Assembly (NCBI RefSeq): GCF_030285665.1
Contig: NZ_CP127295.1
Span: 8,494,001-8,558,000 of the forward strand
Reading direction: 5' to 3'
DNA from: Amycolatopsis mongoliensis
GTDB taxonomy: Bacteria > Actinomycetota > Actinomycetes > Mycobacteriales > Pseudonocardiaceae
Length of the DNA: 64,000 nt
How positions within the stretch are numbered: position 1 is the stretch's first letter; every line of letters starts with the position of its first letter. Position numbers and translations under genes: made by a program. This document shows, in pieces, positions 37,555 through 64,000 of the stretch. The notes under the pieces were generated by a model. That model saw only the letters and a list, made by a program, of their open reading frames with translations. It made no database searches and was not told the origin of the DNA.

Positions 37555-37971
37555 ATGCCGATCCTCACCACCGTGGCCGACTGGACGATCACCGCGTCCG
37601 GCGACTCCGCGACGTTCACCCACGCCTCGGCCGCCGCCTGCTGGGCGCCGCGGGTGTGGAGCGGACGTGGGCTCGCGATCGCCGAGACCGACGTCGCCTC
37701 GTTCGACAAGGCGCTGGGCGAAGTGCTGAAGCTGCCCGTCTACTGGCTGGCCCGCGCCCGGCGGGCAGACAGCGGGGCCGGGGACGCCACGGTCTGGTCG
37801 GAGCCGCGGTTCGACCCGGACGACGAGTTCGTCTCCATCGCCGGCCCCTGCCGGACCGACGAACCCGCGCCGGGGTACCGGCCTGCCTTCACGTTCGCCA
37901 TCGATCTGGTCCACCTGCGGGGATTGCGGATCAGGATCGCCGCCTACCGGGCCGCGTCGGCCGGCCGTTGA
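37555..37971 (+). CDS. hypothetical protein
   Basis: 138-aa protein beginning PILTTVADWTITASGDSATFTHASAAACWAPRVWSG and ending VHLRGLRIRIAAYRAASAGR. ATG at 37555 has AGGGAG 6 nt upstream. No transmembrane segment or catalytic motif; three Trp-containing stretches suggest a folded beta domain. I do not recognise the family. It converges on the pyruvate-kinase-like gene (14-bp gap). Confidence 0.65.
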   Translation: MPILTTVADWTITASGDSATFTHASAAACWAPRVWSGRGLAIAETDVASFDKALGEVLKLPVYWLARARRADSGAGDATVWSEPRFDPDDEFVSIAGPCRTDEPAPGYRPAFTFAIDLVHLRGLRIRIAAYRAASAGR

Positions 37972-37985
37972 GGTCGCTGTCGTGA

Positions 37986-39794
37986 TCAGCCGGGTGGATG
38001 CCACGAGCGCAAGGGCCTGAGCAAGGCGTTCTTCTTGTAGTGGTGGTCGGCCATGCGGCGGAGGATGTCGTCGAGCGTGGTGACGGCGTCGACGATGTGC
38101 GGTCCTTTGTTGAGCATGACGCATTCGGCGCGCACGCCCATCGCGGCGTCGGTGATCTCGGCGCGGGACGGGCGGCCGGTGCGGGCGAGCTGGTCGAGGA
38201 CCTGGGTGGCCCAGACAACCGGCAGGTGCGCGGCTTCGCAGAGCCAGAGGATTTCTTCCTGGAGTTCGGCGAGCCGTTCGTAGCCGCATTCGACGGCCAG
38301 GTCGCCGCGGGCGATCATCACGCCGGTACGCGGGTGGCGCATCGCGGTCAACAGCAGTTCGGGCAGGTTTTCGAACGCCTGCCGGGTCTCGACCTTGAGG
38401 ATCACGCCGAGCTCGCGGGCACCGTGCCGGTCAAGTTCGGCGAGCAGGTCTTCGACGTCGCCGGGGGTGCGGACGAACGACAGCTGGACCAGGTCGGCGT
38501 GGGCGCAGACGAACGGCAGGCAGGCGCGGTCGGCCTCGGTCAGGGCGGGCACCGGCAACTCGGTTCGGGGCAGGTTGATGCCCTTGCCCGCCCGCAGCCG
38601 GGATCCGCCGTCGCGGGCGTCGATGATCCGGACGGTGACCGTGTCCGCGCGGGCGTCGACGACGGCACCGCCGATGCGGCCGTCGTCGAACAGGACCGGG
38701 TCTCCCGGGCGGGCCGCGTCGAAGACGGCGGGCAGGGTGCAGCCGATCCGGGGCGGCCGTTGGACGGCCACGGGCGCGCAGTCGCGGGTCAGGGTGAGCA
38801 GGTCGCCTTCGTGCAGCGTCAGGAACTGCTCGACCGGGGGCAGCGCACCGACTTCGGCCTCGGTGCCGTCGCGCGCCCGCACCACCGTTCCGGTGGTGAG
38901 GTAGGCGGTGTGGTGCGTGGTGGCAAGCACTCCGGCCGGGCTCGCCGAGACGATCACGAGCCGGCGGTGGGCGCCCCGGGCGTCGCGGAACCGCAGCCCC
39001 TGTCCCGGCTGCAGGGTGGTGAGCTCGGCGGCGTGGATCGGGATCGGCCGGGCGTCGGGCCGCGGGGCCGGGGCGCCGGCGGGGGTGAGCCAGCACCACG
39101 CCGGGGCGGTCGGGCGGCCCAGCTGGTCGCGGTGGGGACGGAGCTTGACCACGCGAGGTCCCTCGAGCAGGGGGCCGGTGCGCAGTTTCGGGCCGGCGAG
39201 GTCCATCGCGATCCGGCAGGGCCGTCCGGCGTCCCGGGCGGCGGCGCGGACGTGGTCGATCATCGCTGTCCACTGCTCGGGTCCGTCGTGCGCGCAGTTG
39301 ATCCGGGCGAGGTCCATGCCGGCGCCGACGAGGGCGCGCGTCAGCGTCGGGTCGCGAGCGGCTTCCGCCGGCAGGGTGACCATGACGCGGGTCCGCCGCC
39401 GCGCGGGTTCCGGACCCAGCAGGGCGGTGCTGTTGCTGCGGAGGCTGCGCGGACCGGTGATGAATTCGGTGCGCGGCGGGCGTTTCCGCGCTTCGGGGTC
39501 ACCGGCCAGGGCGACGGCGGCCGCGAAGATGGCTTCGAGGCTGGCGTGGACATGCGGTTCGCTGCGGCCCAGCGAGGACAGGCCCTGCTCGGCCAGCCGG
39601 GCTTGGAGGTCGCGCAGGTCCAGTTGCCGCACGGCCCAGTAGTGCGTGAGGTTGCGCGCGCCGGCCGCATGGCCGGGGGCGACTTCGCCGACCCGCGCCG
39701 CCCAGTAGGACTCGGCGTCGGTCAGCACGGTGAACAGCTGTCGGATTTCTTCGACGATCACGGAGGATTCGCTGGCGGACGGTGCCTTCGTCAC
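37986..39794 (-). CDS. divergent pyruvate kinase-like protein
   Basis: 602 aa, longer than the usual 470-500 because of a helical N-terminal extension of about 170 residues. From about residue 180 the pyruvate kinase barrel is recognisable: TRVMVTLPAEAARDPTLTRALVGAGMDLARINCAHDG, DLAGPKLRTG, ILKVETRQAFENL (catalytic Lys and Glu), MIARGDLAVE, VVWATQVL and RPSRAEITDAAMGV. Differences: the K+-site NFSHG is NCAHDG, and the MLSGETAKG loop near the active site is replaced by MLNKGPHIVD. It may still be a PEP-linked phosphotransferase, but ordinary glycolytic activity is doubtful. GTG start. A DosR-like box lies 80 bp upstream. Confidence 0.8.
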   Translation of the reverse strand: MTKAPSASESSVIVEEIRQLFTVLTDAESYWAARVGEVAPGHAAGARNLTHYWAVRQLDLRDLQARLAEQGLSSLGRSEPHVHASLEAIFAAAVALAGDPEARKRPPRTEFITGPRSLRSNSTALLGPEPARRRTRVMVTLPAEAARDPTLTRALVGAGMDLARINCAHDGPEQWTAMIDHVRAAARDAGRPCRIAMDLAGPKLRTGPLLEGPRVVKLRPHRDQLGRPTAPAWCWLTPAGAPAPRPDARPIPIHAAELTTLQPGQGLRFRDARGAHRRLVIVSASPAGVLATTHHTAYLTTGTVVRARDGTEAEVGALPPVEQFLTLHEGDLLTLTRDCAPVAVQRPPRIGCTLPAVFDAARPGDPVLFDDGRIGGAVVDARADTVTVRIIDARDGGSRLRAGKGINLPRTELPVPALTEADRACLPFVCAHADLVQLSFVRTPGDVEDLLAELDRHGARELGVILKVETRQAFENLPELLLTAMRHPRTGVMIARGDLAVECGYERLAELQEEILWLCEAAHLPVVWATQVLDQLARTGRPSRAEITDAAMGVRAECVMLNKGPHIVDAVTTLDDILRRMADHHYKKNALLRPLRSWHPPG

Positions 39795-39874
39795 GCGCCC
39801 AGCTTCCCCGGCCGGTCCCGGCACGGCCAGGGCACGAGAGTGCCGATGGAGAAGCCTTTCGCCTCTGGCGGCCC

Positions 39875-39888
39875 GCGACGAAGGTCCC
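39875..39888. promoter_or_regulatory. DosR-like box
   Basis: GCGACGAAGGTCCC matches 11 of 14 positions of GGGACTWWAGTCCC. It lies 81 bp before the pyruvate-kinase-like start and 95 bp before the divergent 70-aa gene, so it could serve both. Confidence 0.5.
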
Positions 39889-39982
39889 TGGTGCCGGGGG
39901 CGCAGGTCCATGTGCCGAGCCGTGGACACTACCTACGGTCGGTGCTGGAAGCGAGAGGATCCCCGCCGAAGGAGCCTGGAGC

Positions 39983-40319: not shown

Positions 40320-41528
40320 TCAAGCAGCAGCCGTGACCGGCGGTGAATGATGGAACTCACGACCATCGCGCAGCAACGCCCACATGACGTCGACCAGGCG
40401 GCGGGCCAGTGCGATCAACGCCTGGGTGTGCCGTTTCCCCTCACCACGTTTGCGCAGGTAGAAAGCCCGGGAGGGACCGTCGGGACGTTTGATCGCCGAC
40501 AACGCAGCCAGGTAGAACACCCGGCGCAGCCCACGGTGATAGCGCTTCGGCCGGTGCAGGTTGCCCCGCACCCGCCCGGAATCACGCGGCACCGGCGCCA
40601 GCCCGGCATAGGCCGCCAGATGCGCGGAACTGCCGAACGCAGCCCGCAGATCACCGCCGGTCCCGGCCAGCAGCGAAGCACCCAGGATCGGACCGAACCC
40701 GTCGAGACTGGTGATGCGCCCCGCGTCGGGATGCTCACCAAATCGGTCAGCGAGCTGCTTGCCCAGATCCTTGATCTCCCGATCCAGCTCCAAAAGCTGC
40801 CGCGCCAGCCGCGCGATCAGCGGCGCGGTCACCGATTCCTGCGGCAACGCAACGGTTTGCTCGGCAGCGGCAGCAAGGGCCTTGTCCACCATGGACGGAA
40901 TACCCCTGGCCCACGCACCGTGCTCGTCCAGGTAGGCCGACACACCGGCCGCCCCGGCAGCGCGGATCCCGGCCGGGGTCTGGAAACCGGTCAGCAGCAC
41001 CAGCGCCGAGCGGGTGGAGTAATCGAACGCCCGCTCCAGCGCAGGAAAAATACTCGCCAGCAGCTCACGGATCCGGTTGACCCCGCGCACCCAGTCAGCC
41101 ATCAGGTCCTCCCGCCGCGCGGTGAGCACCTGCAGATCGGTCACCACCGCATCCGGGCTGGTGATCGGGGTCAGATCACCGCGCAGACGCGCGGTTTCGG
41201 CGATCGTGCGGGCGTCTTTGGCGTCGGTCTTGCCCTCACCGACGAACGCACCGGCCATCCGGTTGACCAGCCGGCCCGGCACCGACACCACCGGCTGTCC
41301 GGTGGCCAGCAACAGGGTGATCAGCAAACCGGCCGCACCGGAAGTCATGTCCACTGCCCACACCACCTCGGACGCTTTCGCGGTGGTGCGGGCGATCAGC
41401 TGCTCGATCGGGGCCTGCCCGTTGGCCACCTTCCGAGAGAACACGATCTTGCCGGTCTCATCCACCGCGCACGCGTGGTGGAAACCTTTGCCGACGTCGA
41501 TCCCGACCCACACCTTGCCCACGGCCAC
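40320..41528 (-). CDS. IS110-family transposase
   Basis: 402-aa RuvC-like recombinase. Catalytic positions counted from GTG at 41528 are D11 (VGIDVGK), D60 (WAVDMTSG), D102 and D105 (KTDAKDA), aligning with the D11/E60/D102/D105 set of IS621-type enzymes but with Asp at position 60. A coiled-coil follows, then the C-terminal Tnp domain (ITSLDGFGPILGASLLAG, YAGLAPVPRDSGRVRG) with the presumed Ser nucleophile in RDSG. Reading frame intact, so the element may be active. GGGAGG lies 9 nt before the start. Confidence 0.93.
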   Translation of the reverse strand: MAVGKVWVGIDVGKGFHHACAVDETGKIVFSRKVANGQAPIEQLIARTTAKASEVVWAVDMTSGAAGLLITLLLATGQPVVSVPGRLVNRMAGAFVGEGKTDAKDARTIAETARLRGDLTPITSPDAVVTDLQVLTARREDLMADWVRGVNRIRELLASIFPALERAFDYSTRSALVLLTGFQTPAGIRAAGAAGVSAYLDEHGAWARGIPSMVDKALAAAAEQTVALPQESVTAPLIARLARQLLELDREIKDLGKQLADRFGEHPDAGRITSLDGFGPILGASLLAGTGGDLRAAFGSSAHLAAYAGLAPVPRDSGRVRGNLHRPKRYHRGLRRVFYLAALSAIKRPDGPSRAFYLRKRGEGKRHTQALIALARRLVDVMWALLRDGREFHHSPPVTAAA

Positions 41529-41745: not shown

Positions 41746-41753
41746 GAGGCGTC

Positions 41754-42698
41754 ATGGTCGTCATCGGCACGTGGAATCTGGAGAACCTGTTCCGCCCGGG
41801 TGGCGACGGGCCGCCCGACCAGGCCGCCTACGACGCCAAGCTGGCGGCACTGCGCGCCACCATCACGGCGATCGCGCCGGACGTGCTCGCCGTCCAGGAA
41901 GTCGGCGACCCCGCCGCCCTCGACGACCTGGCCGCACTGCTCCCCGGCGACTGGACGACCGCGCTGTCGCAGCATCCGGACGCACGCGGGATCCGCGTCG
42001 GGTTCCTCTCCCGGCTGCCGCTGACGGTCGTCGCCGACACCGCGGCCCTGGCGCCCAAGCTCGCGCCCGTCCAGGTCGCCGACCCACCCGCCCCGCGCAG
42101 CGACCAGCTCGGACGCGGCGCGCTGACCGTCACCGTGGAACCCGAACCCGGCACCACGCTCACCCTCATCACGTGCCACCTGAAGTCCAAGCTGCTCACC
42201 TACCCCGGCGGCCGGTTCACGCCCCACGACGAAGGCGAACGTGCCCGCTTCGGCGCCTACGCCCTCTACCGCCGAACCGCCGAAGCCACTGCCGTCCGCG
42301 AACTCGCCACCACCTGCCTCGAACCGGATGCCGGTGAACGGCTCGTCGTGCTGGGCGACCTCAACGACGAAGCCACCGCGGCCACCACCCAGATCCTGGC
42401 CGGCCCACCCGGCTCGGAGATCGGTACCGCCGGATTCAAGCGCCCCGACGCCGGCGACCGCTGGCGCCTGTGGAACCTCGCCGCACTCATCCCGCCCGAC
42501 CAGCGCTATTCCCGCATCAACAACGGCCGCCGCGAACTCATCGACCACATCTTCGCCAGCCACGCCTTGCTCGACCCGCTGCCCGAAGTCCACGTCGTCC
42601 ACGACCACGACCTGCCCTCGGTCACCGACAACCCGTCCACACACGTCAGCCAGTCAGGATCCGACCACGCTCCCGTCGTCGCCTCTTTCACCGCATAG
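41754..42698 (+). CDS. endonuclease/exonuclease/phosphatase-family protein
   Basis: 314-aa EEP-fold hydrolase: IGTWNLENLF (first Asn), DVLAVQEVGD (metal Glu), LITCHLKSKL (His), VVLGDLNDEATAA (Asp/Asn), RRELIDHIFASHALL and the terminal SGSDHAPVVASF (catalytic Asp-His) are all intact. It could be a secreted-like nuclease or a phosphodiesterase, but no signal peptide is seen. ATG with GGAGG 5 nt upstream. The IS110 element lies immediately upstream and may have replaced its natural promoter. Confidence 0.9.
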   Translation: MVVIGTWNLENLFRPGGDGPPDQAAYDAKLAALRATITAIAPDVLAVQEVGDPAALDDLAALLPGDWTTALSQHPDARGIRVGFLSRLPLTVVADTAALAPKLAPVQVADPPAPRSDQLGRGALTVTVEPEPGTTLTLITCHLKSKLLTYPGGRFTPHDEGERARFGAYALYRRTAEATAVRELATTCLEPDAGERLVVLGDLNDEATAATTQILAGPPGSEIGTAGFKRPDAGDRWRLWNLAALIPPDQRYSRINNGRRELIDHIFASHALLDPLPEVHVVHDHDLPSVTDNPSTHVSQSGSDHAPVVASFTA

Positions 42699-42815: not shown

Positions 42816-43223
42816 TCAGTCCTTCTTCACCGGGATTTCGATCTGACCGGTCGCTTCGGTCTGCGCCACCGGGACCTTCACCTCGAGGATCCCGTCGTGG
42901 TAGGTGGCGGCGATCTTCGCGGTCTCGGCACCCCGTGGCAGCGCCACCGTCCGGCTGAAGGACCCGTAGCGGAACTCGCTGCGGCCCTTCTCTTCCTTGC
43001 GGGCCTGCCGCTCCGCCGAGATCGTCAGCATCCCGTTCTCCGCCGCGACGTGCACGTCCTTCTCGGGGTCGAAGCCAGGAAGCTCGGCACGCACGACGTA
43101 CTCGCCCTCCGCGGCCACTTCTTCGATCCGGACCAGGTTGCGCTCGCCGAACGGCCACGCCGCGTCGAACCACTCCGTGAGCCCGGGGAACATCGTCCTC
43201 GTCCGAGGAAGCAGTGATGTCAT
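42816..43223 (-). CDS. Hsp20/alpha-crystallin small heat-shock protein
   Basis: 135-aa chaperone. The alpha-crystallin domain (YVVRAELPGFDPEKDVHVAAENGMLTISAER to GILEVKVPV) is complete, with the GxLxV-type signature. It holds unfolding proteins in oligomers. HspX/Acr is a main DosR-regulon product in mycobacteria; a DosR-like palindrome lies 87 bp upstream here. ATG with GGAGGG upstream. Confidence 0.95.
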   Translation of the reverse strand: MTSLLPRTRTMFPGLTEWFDAAWPFGERNLVRIEEVAAEGEYVVRAELPGFDPEKDVHVAAENGMLTISAERQARKEEKGRSEFRYGSFSRTVALPRGAETAKIAATYHDGILEVKVPVAQTEATGQIEIPVKKD

Positions 43224-43309
43224 CCTGCCCTCCTTTCCACACGACAATCGTCGGTCCAGGCAACACCGGCCACCCGCTGCGCCGAAGCGGCCGTAATGCC
43301 CCGAAAGGC

Positions 43310-43323
43310 GGGACCAACGGCCT
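43310..43323. promoter_or_regulatory. DosR-like box upstream of hsp20
   Basis: GGGACCAACGGCCT, the GGGACC-NN-CGGCCCT variant of the box; 10 of 14 consensus positions. It lies 87 bp before the hsp20 start. Confidence 0.55.
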
Positions 43324-43354
43324 CACCGGAACAGGCCGCGGGCCGGAGCGCGGG

Positions 43355-43963
43355 TCAGAAAGCTTCGGCGTAGTCCTCTTCGTGCCGCAGCCGGTTCCGC
43401 ACGGCGACGACCCCCGGGACGGCTTCGGCCAGCCGGACCGCGCGTTCGGCGTCGGCGCCGCCGTGGGCGGTGCCCTCGAGCGTCACCACGCCGTCGTCCA
43501 CGCGCACGGAGAGCGCCCGCTGCGCGCTGGTTTCCCGTTCCACCACCGCCTTGATCTCGGCGTCCGGTCGGACGAACGTGCGCAGTACGTCCGCGCGAGC
43601 AAGAACACCGACCAGCCGGCCCGACCCGTCGACGACGTACAGACGCGGCTGTCTCGCCTGAGCGAGCCGCTGCGCGGCACGTCTGACGGGTTCGTCCGGG
43701 TGGACGGTGGGGACCGGCCGGGTCATGAGTTCCCGCGCGCGCGGCCCGCGTCCGCGGACCCGGCGGTGCGTGCCTCCGCGCCGGAACCGCGCGGGGAGGT
43801 CGGACTCGGCAACCACCCCGATCGGGCGCGACCGGGCGTCGGCCACCGGAACCGCGCCGATGCGGTACCGGTGGAGCAAGGTGGCCAGCTCCGCCGCCGG
43901 GGTGTCCGGGTCGACCGAGACCACCGGCCAGTTCATCAGGTCCGAAACGAGCGGTCCGCGCAT
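43355..43963 (-). CDS. CBS-CBS-BON domain protein
   Basis: 202 aa. Two CBS repeats (VSDLMNWPVVSVDPDTPAAELATLLHRYRIGAVPVAD and ARELMTRPVPTVHPDEPVRRAAQRLAQARQPRLYVVDGSGRLVGVLARADVL) are followed by a BON domain (EIKAVVERET... LSVRVDDGVVTLEGTA). CBS pairs bind adenosyl nucleotides; BON domains contact membranes. CBS proteins such as Hrp1 are in the mycobacterial dormancy regulon. ATG at 43963 is preferred with GGAGG 5 nt upstream. DosR-like boxes lie in the divergent gap. Confidence 0.88.
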   Translation of the reverse strand: MRGPLVSDLMNWPVVSVDPDTPAAELATLLHRYRIGAVPVADARSRPIGVVAESDLPARFRRGGTHRRVRGRGPRARELMTRPVPTVHPDEPVRRAAQRLAQARQPRLYVVDGSGRLVGVLARADVLRTFVRPDAEIKAVVERETSAQRALSVRVDDGVVTLEGTAHGGADAERAVRLAEAVPGVVAVRNRLRHEEDYAEAF

Positions 43964-44043
43964 GCCCACCTCCACCTCGGGTTCCGGCCACCACGTTAGG
44001 CGCTCGCGGCCGGGACCGACGGGGGCCTCGGTCATCGGACGGG

Positions 44044-44057
44044 CGGGCTTTGGTCCT
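44044..44057. promoter_or_regulatory. DosR-like box for CBS-BON gene
   Basis: CGGGCTTTGGTCCT, 10 of 14 positions; 81 bp before the CBS-BON start. Confidence 0.45.
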
Positions 44058-44081
44058 CGGTTCCGCGCGAACCGAGGCGGA

Positions 44082-44095
44082 GAAACGAAAGTCCC
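44082..44095. promoter_or_regulatory. DosR-like box for fusion gene
   Basis: GAAACGAAAGTCCC, 11 of 14 positions with a perfect right half; 83 bp before the phosphoribosyltransferase-hydrolase start. Confidence 0.5.
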
Positions 44096-44178
44096 TTGAC
44101 CAGGTGACGGTCTGCCCTGGTTCGCACGAGGAAACCGGAACACCATCGACGACCCGACCCGCCGCAGGAGGTGCCCCC

Positions 44179-45417
44179 ATGCGGTTCGCCGACCGCGTCA
44201 CCGCCGGCCGTCGCCTCGCCGGGCGGCTGCTCCGGTTCCGGGACGAGGACCCCGTGGTCGTCGGCCTGCCCCGCGGCGGCGTACCGGTCGCGTTCGCCGT
44301 GGCACAGGCCCTGCACGCCCCGCTCGACGTGATCGTGGTCCGCGAGCTCGGGCTGACCGCGGACCAGCTGACGACCGCGGCCGAGGCCGGACAGGCAGAA
44401 CTGCGGCGCCGGGCCGTGCGGCGCCGGGCCGTGCGGGCCCGGGTCCCGCTGAGGGGACGGACCGTGATCGTCGTGGACGACGGCGTGGCCACCGGATCCA
44501 CGGCCCGCGCCGCGTGCCGGGTCGCCAAGGCGCAGGGTGCGGCCCGGGTGGTCCTGGCGGTACCGGTGGCCGCGCCGACGGCCGTCACGGACCTCGCGGC
44601 GAGCGCGGACGAAGTCGTCTGCCTGCAGGCACCGGCGGGCTTCCGCACCGTCGGCCAGTGGTACCGGGACTTCCGGCCGGTCTCCGACGAAGAGGTCGAG
44701 GACCTGCTCCGGCGGGCCGTCGACGACCGGCCGCTGCGGGACGAGGAGGTCACGCTGCTCCAGGCCGCGGTCACGCTGCCCGGGCACCTGACCGTCCCCG
44801 GCGCGCCCACCGGGCTCGTCGTGTTCGCCCACGGCAGCGGGAGCAGCCGGCACAGCCCCCGCAACCAGTACGTCGCCGCGGCCCTGAACCAGGCCGGCCT
44901 GGGCACTCTGCTGTTCGACCTGCTCGCCCCCGGCGAGGAACACGACCGCCGGAAGGTGTTCGACATCCCGTTGCTGGCCGGACGGCTCGCCGAGGCGACG
45001 CGCTGGCTGAGCGCCCAGCCGGAGGCCGCCGGGCTGCCGATCGGGTACTTCGGCGCGAGTACCGGCGCCGCGGCTGCGCTGGTCGCCGCCACGAGACCGG
45101 AAGTCGGCGTCCGCGCGATCGTGTCGCGCGGCGGACGCCCCGACCTGGCCGGCGCGGCGCTGCGCCGGGTACGCACCCCGACGCTGCTGATCGTCGGCGG
45201 AGCCGATGACGTCGTCCTGGGCCTCAACCGGCGCGCCCGCGCCGTCATGCCCGGGGAGACCCGGCTGGCCGTCGTTCCCGGCGCCACCCACCTGTTCGGA
45301 GAACCCGGTGCGCTCGACCGGGTCACCCTCCTCGCCCGCGACTGGTTCACCACCCGTTTCGCCCGCGAGGCACGAGTCTCGACCGCCGCGCGCGCACCGG
45401 GGACCCGTACCGGCTGA
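44179..45417 (+). CDS. phosphoribosyltransferase-alpha/beta hydrolase fusion
   Basis: 412-aa fusion of the Rv0571c type. Residues 1-180 are a type I phosphoribosyltransferase domain with the PRPP motif VIVVDDGVATGST (96-108). Residues about 205-405 are a dienelactone-hydrolase-like domain with Ser294 (FGASTG), Asp343/344 (GGADD) and His371 (PGATHLF). The usual segment after the LG of VVRELG, with a GAIxEGG-like motif, is missing, leaving about 25 residues where relatives have about 60; a 15-bp tandem repeat lies close by. ATG with CAGGAGG upstream. Rv0571c belongs to the DosR regulon. Confidence 0.85.
   Translation: MRFADRVTAGRRLAGRLLRFRDEDPVVVGLPRGGVPVAFAVAQALHAPLDVIVVRELGLTADQLTTAAEAGQAELRRRAVRRRAVRARVPLRGRTVIVVDDGVATGSTARAACRVAKAQGAARVVLAVPVAAPTAVTDLAASADEVVCLQAPAGFRTVGQWYRDFRPVSDEEVEDLLRRAVDDRPLRDEEVTLLQAAVTLPGHLTVPGAPTGLVVFAHGSGSSRHSPRNQYVAAALNQAGLGTLLFDLLAPGEEHDRRKVFDIPLLAGRLAEATRWLSAQPEAAGLPIGYFGASTGAAAALVAATRPEVGVRAIVSRGGRPDLAGAALRRVRTPTLLIVGGADDVVLGLNRRARAVMPGETRLAVVPGATHLFGEPGALDRVTLLARDWFTTRFAREARVSTAARAPGTRTG
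44404..44433 (+). repeat. 15-bp tandem duplication in coding sequence
   Basis: CGGCGCCGGGCCGTG occurs twice head to tail, encoding RRRAV-RRRAV in the phosphoribosyltransferase domain, next to the apparent internal deletion. Confidence 0.9.
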
Positions 45418-47356: not shown

Positions 47357-47386
47357 CGAGCTGTCTCGGCCCCTACGCACCGGTTC

Positions 47387-47400
47387 GGGACTTTCGGCCC
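47387..47400. promoter_or_regulatory. DosR-like box, strongest match
   Basis: GGGACTTTCGGCCC within TTCGGGACTTTCGGCCCCGG; 12 of 14 consensus positions and nearly identical to the known GGGGACTTTTGGCCCT variant. It lies 160 bp before the aldehyde dehydrogenase start. Confidence 0.65.
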
Positions 47401-47453
47401 CGGCCTCCCTGCCCCCGCCTCCGTGAGATCCCGCCCGGCGTGACCGTCGACAC

Positions 47454-49080: not shown

Positions 49081-49110
49081 GGCGGCGCTTCTGAGGTCCG
49101 CTGGCCGGGG

Positions 49111-49156: not shown

Positions 49157-49184
49157 AAGCCGCGACACCAGGCAGGAGGAGCCG

Positions 49185-51794: not shown

Positions 51795-51816
51795 GACACC
51801 ACCGCCCCGGCCGCCG

Positions 51817-52263: not shown

Positions 52264-52459
52264 CGGCCCAGCGTACGACATCCACGGCGGGAGCGCCGGA
52301 GTTCACGGCGCCGGTGGTGGAGCTGAGCGCCATCGGACTCCCCGCGGTCGGTTCGGCCGCCCGCCGTCCGGGTCGGACGCGGACCGGCCGACCAGACTTC
52401 CCGGCACTCCTCGCGTAAAGATGCCGCAAAGACCGTCCCGGGGCAACTCGGGCGCGGCG

Positions 52460-52478
52460 GCTGTCCACTGAGGACAGC
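52460..52478. promoter_or_regulatory. inverted repeat upstream of ABC exporter
   Basis: GCTGTCC-ACTGA-GGACAGC, a perfect 7-bp repeat 85 bp before the ABC ATPase start. A plausible operator for a dimeric regulator; none is encoded next to it. Confidence 0.45.
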
Positions 52479-52562
52479 ACGGTCGCCGGCAGGGGTAGGA
52501 TGGCCCGCGGAGAGCCGGGAAGCCTGGTCGGCGCGAGGTGCCCACGCGCGAAAGAGGCTTCC

Positions 52563-54979: not shown

Positions 54980-55020
54980 GCGCTCCGCGGGCCTTGCGGC
55001 CGTCTCCCGCCGCGGTTCCG

Positions 55021-55034
55021 GTGACTTTGGGCCC
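55021..55034. promoter_or_regulatory. DosR-like box for trehalose operon
   Basis: GTGACTTTGGGCCC followed by TGG; 11 of 14 positions and close to the GGGGACTTTTGGCCCT variant. 62 bp before the TreT-like start. Confidence 0.6.
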
Positions 55035-55095
55035 TGGCGGCACCGGTCCCGCCGGGCCGACGCTGGAACCCCGCCCGCCGAGCGAGAGGTCAGAT

Positions 55096-56517: not shown

Positions 56518-57446
56518 CGGCCCGGCCGTGGCACGGCGGCGAACTGCGCTGGAACGCCGAAACCGAGGACTGGACCGTGCTCGCCCCCAGCCGCGGGAGC
56601 CGCCCCCACAGCGCCGCCGGGGCCGCGTGCCCGTTCTGTCCCGGCCCGGCCGAGGACACCCCGCCCGAGACGTGGCGGCTGCCCGGCGGCGACGTGGGCT
56701 GGCGCGTGCGCGCGGTCCCGAACCGCTACGCGCTCTCGGACCGGCACGAGATCGTCATCGAGTCGCCGCGGCACGACTGGGACCTCGCCACCGGGACCGA
56801 CGGCGAAGTGGCCGACGTGCTCGGCGCCTGGCAGCACCGGCACCGCGCGCTGCGGCCCGCGACCGCCCAGGTCGTCGTGTTCCGCAACCACGGGCTCGCG
56901 GCCGGCATCTCGCTGGCGCACCCGCACTCCCAGATCGCGGGCCTGCCGGTGCTGTCGGCGGAGACCCGGCGCGAGCTGGAGACCGCGCGTGTCCACCACC
57001 GCGACCGCGGCCGGCTGCTCGCCGGCGAACAGCTCGAAGCGGCGTTGAGCGACGGCAAGCGGATCGTCTTCGCGGACGACCACGTGGTCGCCTACACCCC
57101 CTTCGCCCCGATCGCCGCCTACGAGGTCCGCATCCTCCCGCACCGGGCCGGACCGGACTTCGCCGCCGCGGGTGCCGAGGAGATCCGGGCGACCGCGCGG
57201 TGCCTGCGGACGATCCTGGCCGCCCTGCGCGCGGAACTGGGCGACCCGGCCTACAACGTCGTGGTGCGGACCGCGCCCACCGGCTACGAGACCGCGCCGT
57301 TCCTCGCCTGGTCGCTGCAGCTCGTGCCCCGCCTGGAGACTCCCGCCGGGCTGGAACTGGCGACGGGTGTCCCGGTCACGACGGTGTCGCCGGAACACGC
57401 GGCCGCCCGTCTGCGCACCTTGGTCGGCATGGCCGACGTGGGCTGA
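56514..57446 (+). CDS. GalT-like nucleotidyltransferase
   Basis: 310-aa HIT-superfamily uridylyltransferase. CPFCPG (zinc), RAVPNRYALSDRHEIVIESPRHD, VVFRNHGLAAGISLAHPHSQI with the HxH-Q active site, and a C-terminal half ending VVRTAPTGYETAPFLAWSLQLVPR are typical of the GalT/ADP-glucose phosphorylase group. GTG start overlaps the TreT stop (GTGA). With TreT it could turn NDP-glucose into glucose 1-phosphate, or the reverse; specificity is unknown. Confidence 0.88.
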   Translation: MTARPWHGGELRWNAETEDWTVLAPSRGSRPHSAAGAACPFCPGPAEDTPPETWRLPGGDVGWRVRAVPNRYALSDRHEIVIESPRHDWDLATGTDGEVADVLGAWQHRHRALRPATAQVVVFRNHGLAAGISLAHPHSQIAGLPVLSAETRRELETARVHHRDRGRLLAGEQLEAALSDGKRIVFADDHVVAYTPFAPIAAYEVRILPHRAGPDFAAAGAEEIRATARCLRTILAALRAELGDPAYNVVVRTAPTGYETAPFLAWSLQLVPRLETPAGLELATGVPVTTVSPEHAAARLRTLVGMADVG

Positions 57447-57916: not shown

Positions 57917-57967
57917 CGTGGCCTCCGTTCGCACCACGATCGTCGGCCCGCCGCCCCGCCGGGGGCA

Positions 57968-57981
57968 GGGTCTTGGGTCCA
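57968..57981. promoter_or_regulatory. DosR-like box for membrane protein gene
   Basis: GGGTCTTGGGTCCA, 10 of 14 positions; 52 bp before the start at 57916. Confidence 0.45.
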
Positions 57982-58005
57982 CGACCGGGGAGCCGAAAGG
58001 CCGCG

Positions 58006-58620
58006 CTACCGCAGGGGCCGCGCCCGGTGCCCGATCTCCGCGAACAGCTCGCCGACGCGTTCGCGCATCTCGGGCCCGCCGTCGGGGCCGGTCCAGTACC
58101 GGCGGACCGCGCCGGCCAGCCGGTAGCAGACGTCGACCGGCACGAGGAAGCAGTCCGTGCCGCGTTCGGTCCCGCGGAACACGATCGCCTCGACGTCCGG
58201 CTCGGCCGCGGCCAGCAGCGGGTGGCCCGCGGAGAGCTCCGCCCAGAGGCCGGCGGGCAGGGTCGTCTCGACGGCGCCGGCCGGACCGGGCTGGAACGCG
58301 GTGACGCGGGTGCCGCGGCGCAGGAAGAACGCGAAGCCGGCCGGGATCCCGAGCCCGCACCAGTCGAGGCGGACGACCGGGCGCCGGGGGTCCCACAGGT
58401 AGCGCTCCGGCACCGCGCGGTACCGCGCCTCCCCGGCCGGGCACCGGGTGGACAGCAGGAAGCACGCGCGGCACGCGCACAGCAGGCCACGGCGGCCGGT
58501 GTCGACCACGTGGCAGTGCCGCGAAGCCACCGGTGTCCCGCACAGCTCGCACCGCTCCTGCCGCGCGGAGCGCCGGTCCCGGGCGAACGCGGAGTGCGTG
58601 GACCCGGCGTGGACACTCAT
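58006..58620 (-). CDS. DUF5947 hydrogenase-associated protein
   Basis: 204-aa protein with a Cys-rich N terminus (ERCELCGTPV, CHVVDTGRRGLLCACRACFLL), then FLRRGTRVTAFQPGPAGAVE and TDCFLVPVDVCYRLAGAVRRYW. The pattern fits DUF5947, found in operons of actinobacterial high-affinity [NiFe]-hydrogenases. Likely a zinc-binding maturation or electron-transfer partner. ATG overlaps the NifU-like TGA (ATGA). Confidence 0.8.
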   Translation of the reverse strand: MSVHAGSTHSAFARDRRSARQERCELCGTPVASRHCHVVDTGRRGLLCACRACFLLSTRCPAGEARYRAVPERYLWDPRRPVVRLDWCGLGIPAGFAFFLRRGTRVTAFQPGPAGAVETTLPAGLWAELSAGHPLLAAAEPDVEAIVFRGTERGTDCFLVPVDVCYRLAGAVRRYWTGPDGGPEMRERVGELFAEIGHRARPLR

Positions 58621-59147
58621 GACGCTCGCCCTTCCGGTGCGACGCCGGAAGGTGGTCCCATGCCGATCTGGTACAGCGCCTGGGTGGCTTCGGTGACGAT
58701 CTCGACGCCGGTGATCTCCGGAGCGGCGTCCCGGACGGCGGCTTCGACCGTCGCCCGGCCCGTGCGCCCCGCGGACGAGCAGCCCCGGCTCGCGCCGAGG
58801 CTCAGCCGGACCACACCGTCGTCGATGCCCAGGTACCCGACCGCGCCCACCTGCGGGCGGACCCGGTCCAGGGCCCGCCGGACCCGCGCCTGCGCGTCGA
58901 GGGGGTGCAGGTCGTGCAGCGCCAGCAGGCTCCCGACGACGTCGTCGGCGGCGATCGCCCCGACCAGTGCCGGGGCGTGCTCGCGCAGGGAGCCGACGAT
59001 CCGGGTCAGGCCTTCGCCGTACAGGTCCGTCAGCTGCCGGACGATCTCTTCGGCCGGTCGCCGGTTCGGGCCGGCGAGCAGGACGCCCAGAAGTGTCTCG
59101 AGGCGTTCTCCGGGGCTCGGGGCAGCGGGGCCGCCGGGCGTGCTCAC
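58617..59147 (-). CDS. NifU-like C-terminal domain protein
   Basis: 176-aa protein. The second half (LGIDDGVVRLSLGASRGCSSAGRTGRATVEAAVRDAAPEITGVEIVTE) resembles NifU iron-sulfur scaffold domains, but the usual CxxC is SRGC, leaving one Cys. GTG start overlaps the hydrogenase small subunit TGA (GTGA). In related operons a NifU-like gene supports cluster assembly on the hydrogenase. Confidence 0.85.
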   Translation of the reverse strand: MSTPGGPAAPSPGERLETLLGVLLAGPNRRPAEEIVRQLTDLYGEGLTRIVGSLREHAPALVGAIAADDVVGSLLALHDLHPLDAQARVRRALDRVRPQVGAVGYLGIDDGVVRLSLGASRGCSSAGRTGRATVEAAVRDAAPEITGVEIVTEATQALYQIGMGPPSGVAPEGRAS

Positions 59148-60163
59148 CGGTCCGCCGCCGTCCGGATCTCCCGCAGGATGCGGATCGCGGACCCGGACAC
59201 GGTGGTCGTCCCCATCGGGCCGCCGGCGCCGGCCGGGTCCTCCATGAACGGCATGAACTTGTCCGGGAAGCCCGGCATGGTGCAGCCGATGCAGATGCCC
59301 CCGACGTTCGGACACCCGCCGACGCCGTTGATCCAGCCCCGCTTGGGCACGTTGCACTTGACCACCTGGCCCCAGCACCCCAGCTTGACCAGGCACTTGG
59401 GCGAATCGTGCTGATCGGCGAACTCGTCCTGCTCGTAGTACCCGGCCCGGTCGCACCCTTCGTGCACGGTGTTCCCGAACAGCCACTTCGGGCGCAGAGC
59501 CTCGTCGACGTCGATCTCCGGCGCCCGCCCGGACACCTGGAACAGCAGGTGCAGGATGGTCTCGGAAAGGTTGTCCGGCTGCACCGGGCAGCCCGGCACG
59601 CACACGATGGGCAGCCCGGCCCACGACCGCCAGTCCCGGCCGAGGTACTCGGGCACGCCCATCGCGCCGGTGGGGTTGCCGGCCATGGCGTGCACGCCGC
59701 CGTAGCTCGCGCAGGTGCCGACGGCCAGGATCGCCATCGCCTTGGGGGCCAGCCGGTCGAGCCACTCGCTCGCCGTCACGGGCTGGCCGGTCGCGGGGTC
59801 GGTGCCGAACCCGCTCCAGTACCCCTCGGCCTTGTTCGTCTCGTCGGCGATCGAACCCTCGACGATCAGGATGAACGGCTCGAGCTCGCCGCGGTCCGCG
59901 CGGTGCCACCATTCGATGAAGCTGTCGGAGCCCCCGTCGGGCCCGCTGTGGAAATCGAGGAACGGCCAGTGCATGGCGACCTCGGGCAGCCCGGGAAGAC
60001 CGCCGAGAACGATCTCTTCGATACTGGGCTGGGTGGCCGCGGTCAACGCGACCGATTCACCGTCGCAGCTCAGCCCGCCATTCATCCATAAAATATGGAC
60101 GGTCGGTGGATGATTCTCGGAGTCGTCCGCCGGGCCGTTGCCGGTCTGCGTGGCCCTGAACAT
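59144..60163 (-). CDS. hhyS: [NiFe]-hydrogenase small subunit, group 1h-like
   Basis: 339-aa iron-sulfur subunit. VHILWMNGGLSCDGESVALT has Cys33 and Asp34 where standard enzymes have the CxxC proximal-cluster motif; a three-Cys one-Asp ligand set is known for oxygen-tolerant actinobacterial-type hydrogenases. Further cluster Cys: VGTCASYGG, VPGCPVQPD, KLGCWGQVVKCN, GGCPNVGGICIGCTMPGFPDKF. No Tat signal, consistent with this group. ATG at 60163 follows GGAAAGG. The large subunit normally encoded next to it is absent. Confidence 0.92.
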   Translation of the reverse strand: MFRATQTGNGPADDSENHPPTVHILWMNGGLSCDGESVALTAATQPSIEEIVLGGLPGLPEVAMHWPFLDFHSGPDGGSDSFIEWWHRADRGELEPFILIVEGSIADETNKAEGYWSGFGTDPATGQPVTASEWLDRLAPKAMAILAVGTCASYGGVHAMAGNPTGAMGVPEYLGRDWRSWAGLPIVCVPGCPVQPDNLSETILHLLFQVSGRAPEIDVDEALRPKWLFGNTVHEGCDRAGYYEQDEFADQHDSPKCLVKLGCWGQVVKCNVPKRGWINGVGGCPNVGGICIGCTMPGFPDKFMPFMEDPAGAGGPMGTTTVSGSAIRILREIRTAADR

Positions 60164-61000: not shown

Positions 61001-61984
61001 CTACTCCTGAGCGGGCTGCGCCGCACCGGCGGGCCGCTGCCGCATGGCCAGCTCGATGGTGCAGCCGGCGACGTCGGAGCTGATGTCGAGCCATTCGCAG
61101 ATCTGGTCGGTCATCCACAGGCTGGCGCCGGGCCGGGCCGCCGGCCGGAGCCCGTAGAACGCGGGGCCGTCGACCGGCCGGTCGCTGTGCAGCGTGCACA
61201 CCACCCGGCCCGCGGCCGGCCGCACCCACACGGCCGCCCGGTCGATGCCGTGGTCGAGCAGGTAGGCGATCGCCTCTCCGACGGCGATGCCGAACAGCGT
61301 CGCGGTGTCCTCGGACCGCAGCAGGGCACTCGCCCGCTCCAGCACGTGGCGCCGCACGGCGACCAGGTCCCCCTCGAAGCGGAAGAGGTCCGCGGCGGTG
61401 CGCGGTGGTGCGTCCGCACCGGCGCCATCGGCTTCCGCCGGTGCCGTGAACTGCGCGGACGGCCGGATCTCGCCGTCCACGACGCACTCGGGGTGCGTGC
61501 GGCGGGCGTCCGCGACGACGCCCGCACCGGCGGTCCTGGTGTCGTACGGGCAGATCATCCAGATCCGGGTGCCGGCCAGCGCCACGTTGAACTCCGCCTC
61601 GGCCTGCTGCCAGGCGGCTTGGTCGCGGGAGTCCCCGGCCCTGGCCGGCTCGGCGAGGATGCGGACCGCGCCGGTCGGCGCGGTGGACCGGTGGCGGGTC
61701 CAGTAGCGGTGCAGCGCGTCGGCCAGCTGCGCCGGCCGCCGCCCGACGTAGGCCGACTCGGCGAAGGCGATGCGGCCGGCGTCGGCGCCCATCGCAGCGT
61801 GCAGCAGCTCCAGGTTGGCCGCCGTCGTGGTGACCAGCACCGGCTCACCCCGGCGCAACCCGTCCTGCGCGAACGGCACGGCCACCGCGAGGAAGTCGGC
61901 GTCGCTGCCGTAGAGGCAGCCTTGGTGCCGGAAACCTGGCTCCACCCGACCTTTCGGTGCCGGAGCAGCTGCCGGGGTGTTCAT
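61001..61984 (-). CDS. MEDS-domain sensor with anti-sigma-like ATPase domain
   Basis: 327-aa protein. Residues about 15-175 resemble the MEDS sensory domain (FRHQGCLYGSDADFLAVAVPFAQDGLRRGEPVLVTTT, IWMICPYDTRTA). Residues about 215-320 resemble an RsbW-type HATPase (LFGIAVGEAIAYLLDHG, GLRPAARPGASLWMTDQICEWLDISSDVAGCTIELAM). Such proteins regulate sigma factors or anti-anti-sigma partners in response to a signal. AGGAGG precedes GTG (61990) and ATG (61984). Tail-to-tail with the HTH gene. Confidence 0.8.
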   Translation of the reverse strand: MNTPAAAPAPKGRVEPGFRHQGCLYGSDADFLAVAVPFAQDGLRRGEPVLVTTTAANLELLHAAMGADAGRIAFAESAYVGRRPAQLADALHRYWTRHRSTAPTGAVRILAEPARAGDSRDQAAWQQAEAEFNVALAGTRIWMICPYDTRTAGAGVVADARRTHPECVVDGEIRPSAQFTAPAEADGAGADAPPRTAADLFRFEGDLVAVRRHVLERASALLRSEDTATLFGIAVGEAIAYLLDHGIDRAAVWVRPAAGRVVCTLHSDRPVDGPAFYGLRPAARPGASLWMTDQICEWLDISSDVAGCTIELAMRQRPAGAAQPAQE

Positions 61985-62361: not shown

Positions 62362-63351
62362 TCAGCGGTCGCGCAGCACCTCTTGCACCGCCCGGCGCGG
62401 CGAGAGCGGATCGGCTTCGGCGGCGTACCCGATGCGCAGGAGCGCCTGCGGGAAGCCGGCGAGCCCGAGGTCGTCGCACAGCGCGGAGCGGACCGCCGGC
62501 AGGTGCAGCGGCTGGGTCAGCACCGCGGCCGCCAGCCCGAGGTCGACCGCGGCGAGCCAAGCCCGTTCCATCGCGTAGCCCGCCCGCACGTGGTCGAGCC
62601 GGGCGTCGTCCGCGGTGACGAAGATCAGCAGGGTCTCACCGGCCAGGCGGGCCTCGAGTTCGGCGGCGTCCGGAAGTTCCGTCGCACGGCGGACCAGTCC
62701 CGCCCACGGCACCGATCCCGCCGGAACCCGGCCGGCGGGCAGGCCGACACCGTGCCGGTGGGAGCGCTCGTCCCGGATCGTCCAGAGGGACAGCTCCCGT
62801 TGGTAACCGCCGTCGGCCTGGAAGCTCTCCGCGGCGAAGTGCAGCAGCCTGGCCGTGACAGCGACCTCCCGGCCGGGTCGCAGCGGACGCGCTTCGACGC
62901 CCGGCGCCCCGCCCGCGCCGGTGATGGCCCGCACCACCGGCGCCGGCACGGCCACTCCTTCGAAGGGCGCCCGGTGGCTCGCCCGGCGGGCGATGGCCCC
63001 GTAGTGGAGGAGCTCTTCGCGCGTGGGCGGTTCGTCGGCGCCGACGACGATCCGCGCCACCAGGTCCGGTTGCCGCTCGTCGGGCAGGAACGCGAGGTCC
63101 ACCGAGCGGCCGAGCGTGCGGGCCGCGAGCTCGAGGTTGGCCACCGCGGCGCCGCAGGACGCGGCGCGGTCGCGCCCGTCCGGGTCGTGGTGCGGGAGGA
63201 CGGGTTCGGCGCGTTCCCGCACCCGCAGCTCGCCCGGCGCGACCTCCAGCAGCCAGGGCTGCGTGTTGTGCACCGACGGCGCCCGCATCATGGACCGGAC
63301 GAGCACCTCGGTCTCGGCCGCCGTCCAGGACCTGCCCTCCACAGTGGACAT
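62362..63351 (-). CDS. Acg-family nitroreductase-like protein
   Basis: 329-aa protein of the Acg/Rv3131 group: RAPSVHNTQPWLLEV near residue 24, HYGAIARRASHRAPFEG and AGYAMERAWLAAVDLGLAAAVLTQPLHLP. These are duplicated nitroreductase folds, several of which are strongly induced through DosR in M. tuberculosis and may sequester flavin rather than catalyse. It starts 6 bases after the DUF6292-like stop, so it shares the promoter at about 63930. Confidence 0.9.
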   Translation of the reverse strand: MSTVEGRSWTAAETEVLVRSMMRAPSVHNTQPWLLEVAPGELRVRERAEPVLPHHDPDGRDRAASCGAAVANLELAARTLGRSVDLAFLPDERQPDLVARIVVGADEPPTREELLHYGAIARRASHRAPFEGVAVPAPVVRAITGAGGAPGVEARPLRPGREVAVTARLLHFAAESFQADGGYQRELSLWTIRDERSHRHGVGLPAGRVPAGSVPWAGLVRRATELPDAAELEARLAGETLLIFVTADDARLDHVRAGYAMERAWLAAVDLGLAAAVLTQPLHLPAVRSALCDDLGLAGFPQALLRIGYAAEADPLSPRRAVQEVLRDR

Positions 63352-63357
63352 GGCGGG

Positions 63358-63852
63358 TCAGCCCGCCCGGCGCAGGAACGGGACACCCGCGGACCACACG
63401 TCGCGCCGGTACCGCAGCAGGCGGGCGCTCAGCTCGCTCCGATCGTCCCGCAGGTCCGGCGGCACCGGCGCGGTGTCCGGCGCGCCCGCCGACCGGATCC
63501 CGGCCACGAAGCGGCCGACGCGGGGCGGGGCGGGCACGAGCTCGCCGCCGAGGTAGGCGAGCACCAGCAGGTCTTCCCCGGAGTGGGTCTCCATGGCGAA
63601 CGCCCAGCCGTGGCGCTCGTCCCACAGCAGGGCCATGTCCCGGTCCGGGTGGCGGAGCAGGCGCACGTCCAGCGCGACGTACGCGGACGCGGGGGCGTCG
63701 AGGTCGACGGTGCAGGACTCCACGCCCACACCGACCGCGGAGCTCACCGCGGCCAGATAGCCGGTCAGCCCGCGCCGCAGGCCGTGATCACGGTCGATAC
63801 CGGTCAGCAGGGGAATCACCCTCCATCGCCTCGGGACGTACACCGGCCACAT
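63358..63852 (-). CDS. DUF6292-like protein
   Basis: 164-aa protein (DHGLRRGLTGYLAAVSSAVGVGVESCTVDLDAPASAYVALD, RDMALLWDERHGWAFAMETHSGEDLLVLAYLGGELVPAPPRVGRFV) resembling small actinobacterial DUF6292 proteins of unknown role. ATG at 63852 is preferred because the longer frame would begin inside a DosR-like box. It is the first gene of a two-gene unit with the Acg-like protein. Confidence 0.75.
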   Translation of the reverse strand: MWPVYVPRRWRVIPLLTGIDRDHGLRRGLTGYLAAVSSAVGVGVESCTVDLDAPASAYVALDVRLLRHPDRDMALLWDERHGWAFAMETHSGEDLLVLAYLGGELVPAPPRVGRFVAGIRSAGAPDTAPVPPDLRDDRSELSARLLRYRRDVWSAGVPFLRRAG

Positions 63853-63928
63853 CGGACCGGTTCTCACCAGGCTCCGACGGTACGATCCCGCCCCCCGGGC
63901 CGGATGGCGTCGTTCGGCCCCCGTGGGA

Positions 63929-63942
63929 AGGACTTTGGTCAC
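63929..63942. promoter_or_regulatory. DosR-like box for DUF6292-acg unit
   Basis: AGGACTTTGGTCAC, 11 of 14 positions; 77 bp before the start at 63852. Confidence 0.55.
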
Positions 63943-64000
63943 CTGGGCGCCGCAGCGCCCGCAGCAGGTCCGCCACGACCGGGACGCCGGGCCGGTCGTC

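Follow-up and report, generated by a model that had tools for sequence, protein, structure and literature searches.

A probable OsdKR/DevSR-controlled dormancy and hypoxia island of ~180 kb in Amycolatopsis mongoliensis

Do the dormancy-type genes that lie together in one part of the Amycolatopsis mongoliensis chromosome form a regulon, and if so, what controls them? The stretch analyzed here (the window) comprises bases 8494001-8558000, 64,000 nucleotides in all, of a single-contig 10.81-Mb genome with 72% G+C; positions past 64000 are given in extended coordinates, which continue the window numbering rightward. A first-pass annotation of the window had recognized relatives of DosR-regulon genes and, upstream of them, a set of DosR-like palindromes. 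We conclude that the window very probably carries the left end of a ~180-kb dormancy/hypoxia island that is controlled by a two-component system of the OsdKR/DevSR type encoded within the island itself.

All 11 palindromes listed by that annotation were recovered where it had placed them, with matches at 9-12 of the 14 consensus positions. Sites were scored with two matrices. The first was built from 26 published Streptomyces coelicolor OsdR sites (PMC5069765 Table 1), which are predicted and in part tested by electrophoretic mobility shift assay, and was made symmetrical. Because this matrix by itself scores the local form of the box too low, that form having A at position 5 and an AT-rich centre, a local matrix was seeded with the S. 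coelicolor sites and refined exclusively on intergenic DNA outside the window, at 64-201 kb; the window and the stretch at 201-218 kb, neither of which was used in training, served to test it. Genes were called from codon-position G+C with bonuses for start codons and ribosome sites, and start codons are approximate. The intergenic set comprised regions of at least 40 bp facing at least one start, and the controls were 168 intergenics from twenty 20-kb stretches spread across the same genome. By the local matrix, the listed sites at 55021 (15.3), 47387 (15.0), 63929 (14.6), 43310 (13.1), 39875 (11.9), and 44082 (10.1) are strong, those at 44044 (7.9), 47476 (6.8), 57968 (6.2), and 54966 (5.9) are weak, and the site at 47454 (2.4) is negligible.

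The palindromes are of the DevR/OsdR type and are enriched in the promoters at 37-64 kb. Matches to the annotation's consensus at 10 or more of 14 positions occur in 6 of the 14 intergenics at 36.5-64 kb against 12 of 168 controls (Fisher 7e-4), in one of 19 in the first 36.5 kb, and in 25 of 44 at 64-201 kb. The 14 window-island intergenics hold eight such matches, a number reached in none of 1000 length-matched control draws (mean 1.4). The contrast is weak at the laxer level of 9/14 (9/14 vs 58/168 intergenics, Fisher 0.03), and a single window site remains at the stricter level of 12/14. Boxes scoring >9 by the local matrix are present in 5/14 intergenics of the window island, 1/19 to its left, 22/44 at 64-201 kb (the training set), and 4/168 controls; the S. 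coelicolor matrix gives 3/14, 1/19, 12/44, and 3/168 at the same threshold (window vs controls, Fisher 0.006). Dinucleotide shuffles of the same 14 intergenics reached the local-matrix count in 0/1000 cases and the S. coelicolor-matrix count in 25/1000 (score >7). Column-permuted local matrices never reached the window count in 400 trials, and 2-3% of the permuted S. coelicolor matrices did. The comparison of a matrix scan with shuffled promoters that the annotation had proposed, run here on island and control intergenics, places the box density above both shuffles and controls, and its view that the palindromes are denser than chance is borne out.

The boxes also recur in pairs. A second box (score >4) lies exactly 22 bp from a box >9 at 13 of 79 opportunities across the island, where the background, taken from other spacings of 12-60 bp with 21-23 excluded, is 0.0043 (binomial 4e-17). 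Spacings of 21 and 23 bp account for three pairs each, and the control boxes show no 22-bp pairing (0/17). Because the matrix refinement used single boxes, it did not create this spacing. Three of the 13 pairs, 39874/39896, 43287/43309, and 44081/44103, fall in the window, together with weaker pairs at 22 bp (44021/44043, 47453/47475, and 57967/57989) and at 23 bp (39851/39874 and 54965/54988). The 22-bp spacing also dominates the per-box count in the relatives G073 (10/43), G003 (10/28), and G027 (14/77), in the latter two partly via orthologous promoters; in G028 (1/15) and G005 (none at 22 bp, 1/9 at 21 bp) there are few boxes. In Mycobacterium tuberculosis, DevR occupies a primary and a neighboring secondary site by cooperative binding, the two being closely packed and the site proximal to the transcription start point overlapping the -35 element (PMC3029386). 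By analogy, the 22-bp pairing fits cooperative binding, and at this distance two dimers would sit on the same face of the helix. The literature searched yielded no figure for the box spacing, and we do not claim the spacing as unpublished.

Within the window, box pairs with centres 22 bp apart precede the pyruvate kinase gene (39874..39911, scores 11.9 and 5.3) and hsp20 (43287..43324, 8.8 and 13.1). Two further such pairs share the divergent promoter between a CBS-domain gene and a phosphoribosyltransferase gene (44021/44043 and 44081/44103, spanning 44021..44118; 7.0/7.9 and 10.1/9.6), and a weak one lies at 57967..58004 (6.2 and 7.2). A strong box at 47386..47401 (15.0; 11.9 by the S. coelicolor matrix) precedes the aldehyde dehydrogenase gene, with the weak pair 47453/47475 (2.4/6.8) nearer the start. 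Another strong box, at 55020..55035 (15.3), stands 68 bp before a TreT-type gene and is accompanied by the weak pair 54965/54988; the box at 63928..63943 (14.6) is found 116 bp before a DUF6292 gene and falls within the 3' end of the reading frame that comes next. Over the whole island, box-to-start distances (n=77, approximate gene calls) have a median of 89.5 bp and an interquartile range of 68.5-123.5, and 82% of 45 boxes sit 40-130 bp from the nearest start, against a random mean of 53% (0/2000). The annotation's view that placement before start codons is non-random therefore stands, but its exact range of 52-95 bp does not, since it varies with the start codons chosen.

A candidate regulator pair, whose genes the annotation had proposed looking for as devR and devS, is encoded within the same island at 46-49 kb beyond the window. 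Over 209 amino acids, the OsdR homologue (112663-113301, minus strand, extended coordinates) and M. tuberculosis DevR (3c3w) give a gapless alignment (E 1e-94). Asp54 and the stretch RMFLAEKTVKNYVSRLL are identical to DevR 3c3w, and so is EKTVKNYVSRLL, which we take to be the recognition helix, in keeping with the receiver and LuxR-type DNA-binding domains expected of such a response regulator. The neighboring kinase (109735-111501, minus strand, extended) has a first GAF domain that matches the DosT/DevS heme-GAF structures 2vzw (which we take to be DosT), 2y8h, and 2w3d (E 9e-65 to 3e-57); its residues 239-394 match the GAF protein 2vjw, and its C-terminus matches the DosT ATPase domain 3zxq/3zxo. 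An HHPPM segment, which presumably holds the proximal histidine, is kept. Judged by these matches, the kinase is predicted to be of the DevS/DosT/OsdK type, with tandem GAF domains, a putative heme-type first GAF, and an ATPase C-terminus. A second GAF/HisKA_3 kinase is encoded at 119279-120919 (extended).

A mechanism can be proposed on this basis. The heme-GAF kinase would sense low O2, NO, or CO and phosphorylate OsdR. Phospho-OsdR would bind a box of the form GGGMCSWWSGKCCC and cooperatively occupy a second, often weaker box whose centre lies 22 bp, or two helical turns, away, such pairs being located mostly 40-130 bp before start codons. Many short operons would thereby be switched on, serving low-oxygen energy metabolism, redox balance, storage metabolism, and protein protection.

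The genome also encodes three further OsdR-like regulators, at 780540 (69% identical), 7479073 (55%), and 2195219 (55%), and one of these paralogues, or several regulators together, could be the main regulator in vivo of sites that are themselves real. Speaking for such a role, the box-dense region at 0.74-0.80 Mb holds the 69% copy, and Mycobacterium smegmatis has two devR-containing clusters (PMC2799521). We nevertheless consider it quite unlikely, as the in-island osdR adjoins its kinase and the box in the divergent promoter between osdR and the cytochrome bd operon is identical in G027 and G003. Only the in-island copy was measured for its closeness to DevR.

How far does the island reach? 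The annotation had given it 26 kb; its actual extent is ~180 kb, and the window holds only the left end (~37-64 kb). Boxes >9 by the local matrix occur in 32 of the 69 intergenics at 36.5-218.6 kb, as against 1/33 in the flanks and 4/168 controls, and the S. coelicolor matrix, which is independent of this genome, finds 16/69, 1/33, and 3/168 (4/201 for flanks and controls combined). At 201-218 kb, unseen in training, 5/11 intergenics carry a local-matrix box. Taken together, the untrained parts of the island give 10/25 against 5/201 for flanks and controls with the local matrix (Fisher 9e-8), and 4/25 against 4/201 with the S. coelicolor matrix (Fisher 0.006). The last box >9 is at 214026, and none of the 12 intergenics at 220-260 kb has one. 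Since the genes from 215431 on are common to two relatives without the island, we place the island at ~36.8 to 215 kb.

Typical members of a DosR regulon are Usp, Hsp20, CBS, Acg nitroreductase, Rv1733c-family, WS/DGAT, and hydrogenase proteins, and profile matches place these families in the island. Seventeen of the genome's 30 Usp domain matches, by hand count, fall within it (~1.7% of the genome), none of them in the 64-kb window. Profile or structure-sequence searches of 30 genes beyond the window further identified two WS/DGAT acyltransferases, a nitroreductase-family protein, soluble hydrogenase subunits, GAPDH, acetate kinase, an acyl-CoA-ligase/acetyltransferase fusion, cytochrome bd I and II with an ABC fusion, phosphoketolase, PPK2, a P-type ATPase with a hemerythrin domain, FtsH, a membrane-linked hydrogenase, V/A-type ATPase subunits, cation P-type ATPases, and a redox/thiamine pyrophosphate (TPP)-enzyme pair. 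The membrane-linked hydrogenase (174885-178986, extended, L009) consists of small subunit, large subunit, cytochrome b561, and HycI, with a box of 15.2 upstream at 179063, and is 82-97% identical in G073. An assignment of the hydrogenase at 174.9-179.0 kb to group 1h was dropped, because the cytochrome b561 partner and the HycI protease shown by Pfam make it a membrane-linked type. The V/A-type ATPase genes (195176-203360, extended, L010 and L158), of which subunit I and an alpha/beta-family subunit were recognized by Pfam, lie behind boxes at 195019 and 195081.

Several boxes are conserved in relatives. Boxes >8 are 78% identical to their counterparts in G027 (784 positions; flanks 70%, 5201 positions) and 77% identical to those in G003 (240 positions; flanks 74%, 1805 positions). 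The box before the TreT-type gene (55020) is identical in G027 and at the same distance, within a flank of 68% identity, and the DUF6292 box (63928) has the same position in G027 and G003 with a better score of 17.0. We also surveyed 88 loci of the phosphoribosyltransferase-hydrolase fusion gene that is transcribed from the divergent promoter described above (80 named and 8 from the genus, sorted by record titles). A box >7 lies within 200 bp upstream in 16/42 actinobacterial loci and in 2/46 others; random 200-bp windows of the present genome contain one in 6.7% of cases. A Streptosporangium (L037) has an osdR relative (67%), the fusion gene, and several boxes within 21 kb, and an Acidimicrobiales metagenome-assembled genome (L050) has the same set within 17 kb, its osdR relative being 60% identical.

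Other observations weigh against an OsdR-controlled island. Over the whole window, the consensus count with up to three mismatches is modest, at 8 against 3.6 expected, and 3/100 shuffles reach 8. The strict IUPAC pattern GGGMCSWWSGKCCC has 15 matches in the whole genome, of which the island holds four, whereas its reversed control has 20; a second strict pattern occurs at 12 places, three in the island, and its reversed control at 16. As the reversed controls are at least as frequent, strict matches are not enriched genome-wide; such patterns are too blunt, and a matrix applied to intergenic DNA is needed. Nine of the 14 window-island intergenics are without a box >9, among them the ones that precede the ABC operon and the gene for the hydrogenase small subunit, so that not every gene of the window island need belong to the regulon. 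The mean conservation of boxes is only moderately above that of their flanks, and relatives have lost several of them, such as the one before 95536 in G027 and that before 125996 in G003. Among the relatives fetched around osdR, only G027 is comparable in its box-carrying intergenics (32/76), with G003 at 10/73, G028 at 7/91, and G005 at 5/69. The box-rich stretch in G073 has no close OsdR within the 200 kb fetched (best tblastn match 30%).

The whole-window count and the strict genome-wide patterns would suit a view in which G+C-rich palindromes arise by chance in long intergenics and the genes are grouped by coincidence. We regard this as extremely improbable, and for the island as a whole it is refuted: the box counts exceed length-matched controls, dinucleotide shuffles, and column-permuted local matrices alike, the exact 22-bp pairing is missing in controls, sites persist in relatives, and box density drops to nil at 220-260 kb and is nil or nearly so (0/29 and 2/37) at the same chromosomal site in relatives without the island. 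The individual weak sites 47454, 54966, and 57968 may be due to chance.

What occupies this site in relatives bears on how the island came together. Its left edge coincides with a tRNA Gly-Cys-Val cluster, in which tRNA-Val(GAC) lies at 36709..36783 (plus strand, ARAGORN). An identical, inverted tRNA-Val(GAC) (75/75) lies at 220291-220365 (extended), ~5 kb past the right edge. Because G076 and G084, which are without the island, have the same arrangement, the two copies belong to the flanks and were rejected as edges of the island itself; a strictly defined tRNA-borne integrative element was likewise not supported, the copies being inverted and not a direct repeat. No further copy of the tRNA-Val(GAC) 3' end was found in the ~260 kb searched, in which an integrase was not specifically sought. 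The inverted copies could let the whole interval invert by recombination.

The ssgA-tRNA locus was matched in 80/80 genus genomes (own included) and the right-flank gene in 63/80. By hand reading, the tRNA cluster and the right-flank gene are ~35-354 kb apart in 14 relatives that share the arrangement of the present genome (G003, G005, G025, G029, G062, G068, G073, G076, G077, G082, G083, G084, G098, and G099), and 0.75-2.6 Mb apart in four more (G089, G093, G100, and G012). Six others, with the tRNA cluster reversed, have osdR between the landmarks (G006, G007, G015, G016, G019, and G031). A small empty site, sought via the tRNA cluster and the right-flank gene, was nowhere found clean, the shortest interval being ~35 kb (G077). 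In three of the shortest intervals, few intergenics carry boxes (G077 1/14, G076 0/29, and G084 2/37), and no gene of 36.8-215 kb was found in these fetched intervals at >=50% identity over half its length; G076 and G084 conserve both flanks and hold other DNA of ~45-60 kb between them. Since these short intervals lack the island genes and have few boxes, the site is variable, and in the present genome the dormancy island occupies it.

The closest island, in G027, stands beside the same thrS/ssgA genes in largely the same order; its soluble hydrogenase genes and its cytochrome bd operon occupy different places, and it has two osdR copies. Apart from an IS110 copy (92%) at another location and distant Hsp20 (56%), CBS (56%), and ABC ATPase (41%) matches, G027 is without the segment at 37.5-54.3 kb. 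G+C at third codon positions (GC3) is 0.893 at 37.5-50.5 kb and 0.955 in the core to its left, and the phosphoribosyltransferase-hydrolase is present in 5/80 genus genomes (own included) at E<=1e-60. The segment at 37.5-54 kb, whose promoters nevertheless carry paired boxes, thus appears to be a later module that arrived wired with boxes or was wired quickly.

The grouping could mainly reflect the gathering of niche genes at a variable insertion hot spot next to the thrS-ssgA-tRNA locus, with shared OsdR control being later or partial. The range of interval lengths in the 14 relatives would suit this, as would the other DNA in G076 and G084, neither of which has island genes at >=50% identity, and the low GC3, the IS110 transposase, and the absence from the G027 island of the segment at 37.5-50.5 kb. 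Box density inside the island is, however, many times that in the rest of the genome, and osdR lies between the same landmarks in six other genus members; we rate a hot spot with OsdR control only later or partial as rather unlikely. A hot spot and an OsdR-controlled island are compatible, the one accreting modules wired for the other. We offer as a tentative possibility that the island is a growing, modular low-oxygen package, in which the tRNA-side hot spot accretes modules pre-wired with 22-bp-paired OsdR boxes; relatives that keep the same flanks without the island strengthen this reading.

The regulon also extends beyond the island. Ten outside 20-kb stretches were picked for Usp, OsdR-like, or fusion-gene paralogues; seven have 0-3 boxes >11, and three have 6-8, at 6.17 Mb (8), 0.74 Mb (6), and 8.97 Mb (6), against 0-2 in 20 controls. 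Because these three stretches are box-rich, the regulon is one main island with satellites, at 0.74-0.80, 6.17-6.18, and 8.97-8.98 Mb, and the annotation's description of a single island was incomplete. The satellite at G000:C1:740001-800000 (L206-L208) contains Usp genes and the 69%-identical OsdR copy at 780540.

The M. tuberculosis DosR regulon is scattered, whereas the present one is mainly clustered in one island. The annotation had drawn this contrast, which is not new, as clusters are already published for S. coelicolor and M. smegmatis. The S. coelicolor OsdKR region, SCO0167-SCO0219, was described as clustered by Urem et al. 2016 (PMC5069765), and, as in the present island, the cluster houses a DevR-type regulator and a kinase together with genes for Usp, nitroreductase, dehydrogenase, and pyruvate phosphate dikinase. 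The OsdR box given there is a 16-bp palindrome, AGGGCCGATCGGCCCT, and one of its sites, AGGGACCTTCGGCCCC, is nearly identical to the present 47386 box. That cluster has the nitrate reductase Nar2, and the word hydrogenase, searched for at word starts, is absent from PMC5069765; the present island differs in its size of ~180 kb, cytochrome bd, two hydrogenases, V/A-type ATPase, TreT-type gene, and aldehyde dehydrogenase. M. smegmatis likewise has DosR-type genes clustered with devR copies: msmeg_3932-3955 forms a cluster that carries a devR copy of its own, one cluster lies beside a NiFe hydrogenase, and the devR-containing clusters are up at 2.5% and 0.6% O2 (PMC2799521), although these two clusters are smaller (24 and 6 locus numbers) than the present island. 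The hydrogenases Hhy and Hyh are counted in the dos regulon (PMC8125079). M. tuberculosis DevR, with its cooperative primary and secondary sites (PMC3029386), is the closest solved homologue of the present OsdR. No further such island was found for other actinobacteria in the literature searched, which covered subscription literature thinly. The island is a known kind of system, and this copy of it is unusually large.

Within the window, the families named by the annotation are right, Rv1733c and Acg scoring above their NCBIfam cut-offs and Hsp20, CBS, and the phosphoribosyltransferase-hydrolase fusion being recognized by Pfam. From the left, the genes encode a pyruvate kinase of PRK14725 type (37986..39794, minus; NCBIfam NF011314, 802 bits, cut-off 642), an IS110-family transposase (40320..41528, minus; PF01548 and PF02371 on the longer frame 40320-41612), an endonuclease/exonuclease/phosphatase-family protein (41754..42698, plus; PF03372), an Hsp20 small heat-shock protein (42816..43193, minus; PF00011, 77 bits, longer frame 42816-43247), and a CBS-BON protein (43355..43963, minus; PF00571 in two stretches and PF04972, longer frame 43355-44146). 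The divergent phosphoribosyltransferase-alpha/beta-hydrolase fusion (44179..45417, plus; PF00156 and PF12146, longer frame 44050-45417) is presumably of the Rv0571c type, as the annotation named it; it has paralogues at 8699510 (77%) and 6178891 (52%). The promoter of the 77%-identical paralogue holds a 22-bp box pair (204721-204758, extended), one box of which is similar in sequence to that of the window copy. Next come a trypsin-like serine protease (45965..46726, plus; PF13365 on the longer frame 45833-46726), the aldehyde dehydrogenase with a DUF779 protein (47560..49535, plus; PF00171 on the longer frame 47173-49080, and PF05610), and, at 50502..54262, a CitMHS transporter and CBS protein (minus) and an ABC transporter pair (plus), assigned by Pfam; the scan found no box >5 in the divergent intergenic between them (52264-52562).

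An Rv1733c-family protein (54278..54874, minus; NCBIfam NF050032, 138.5 bits, cut-off 80) is followed by the TreT-type trehalose synthase/glycosyltransferase with a GalT-like protein (55096..57446, plus; PF21269 and PF00534, longer frame 54961-56517, and PF01087). Genes for DUF5947, a NifU-domain protein, and a second [NiFe]-hydrogenase small subunit follow (58006..60163, minus; PF19372, PF01106, and PF14720/PF01058 on overlapping frames), with no box >5 upstream in the scan. This small subunit has no adjoining large subunit, the genome's PF00374 matches lying elsewhere; a related small subunit at 2.04 Mb, 72% identical to it, adjoins a large-subunit match. Close copies (87-96%) are present in seven genus genomes, in three of which they lie ~12-13 kb from the other small subunit. 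An RsbA-type anti-sigma regulatory protein with a MEDS domain (61001..61945, minus; NCBIfam NF041045, 256 bits, cut-off 210; PF14417), whose best upstream box scores 6.0, perhaps provides a link to a stress sigma factor. The window ends with an Acg-family (Rv3131-type) FMN oxidoreductase (62362..63351, minus; NCBIfam NF047509, 232.7 bits, cut-off 199) and the DUF6292 protein (63358..63819, minus; PF19809 on the longer frame 63358-63942).

Here, a DevR/OsdR dormancy system can be read as one compact locus with its own regulators, and its regulon offers a sharp cis-rule of two boxes 22 bp apart. Judging from its genes, the island lists the energy-conserving enzymes that the organism may use at low oxygen. 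With the site filled in some species and island-less in others, the locus asks whether a stress regulon grows by acquiring pre-wired modules or by gaining boxes in place. If the modular reading is true, the pyruvate kinase, aldehyde dehydrogenase, TreT-type gene, hydrogenases, and V/A-type ATPase would have joined the regulon by insertion and not by promoter evolution in place.

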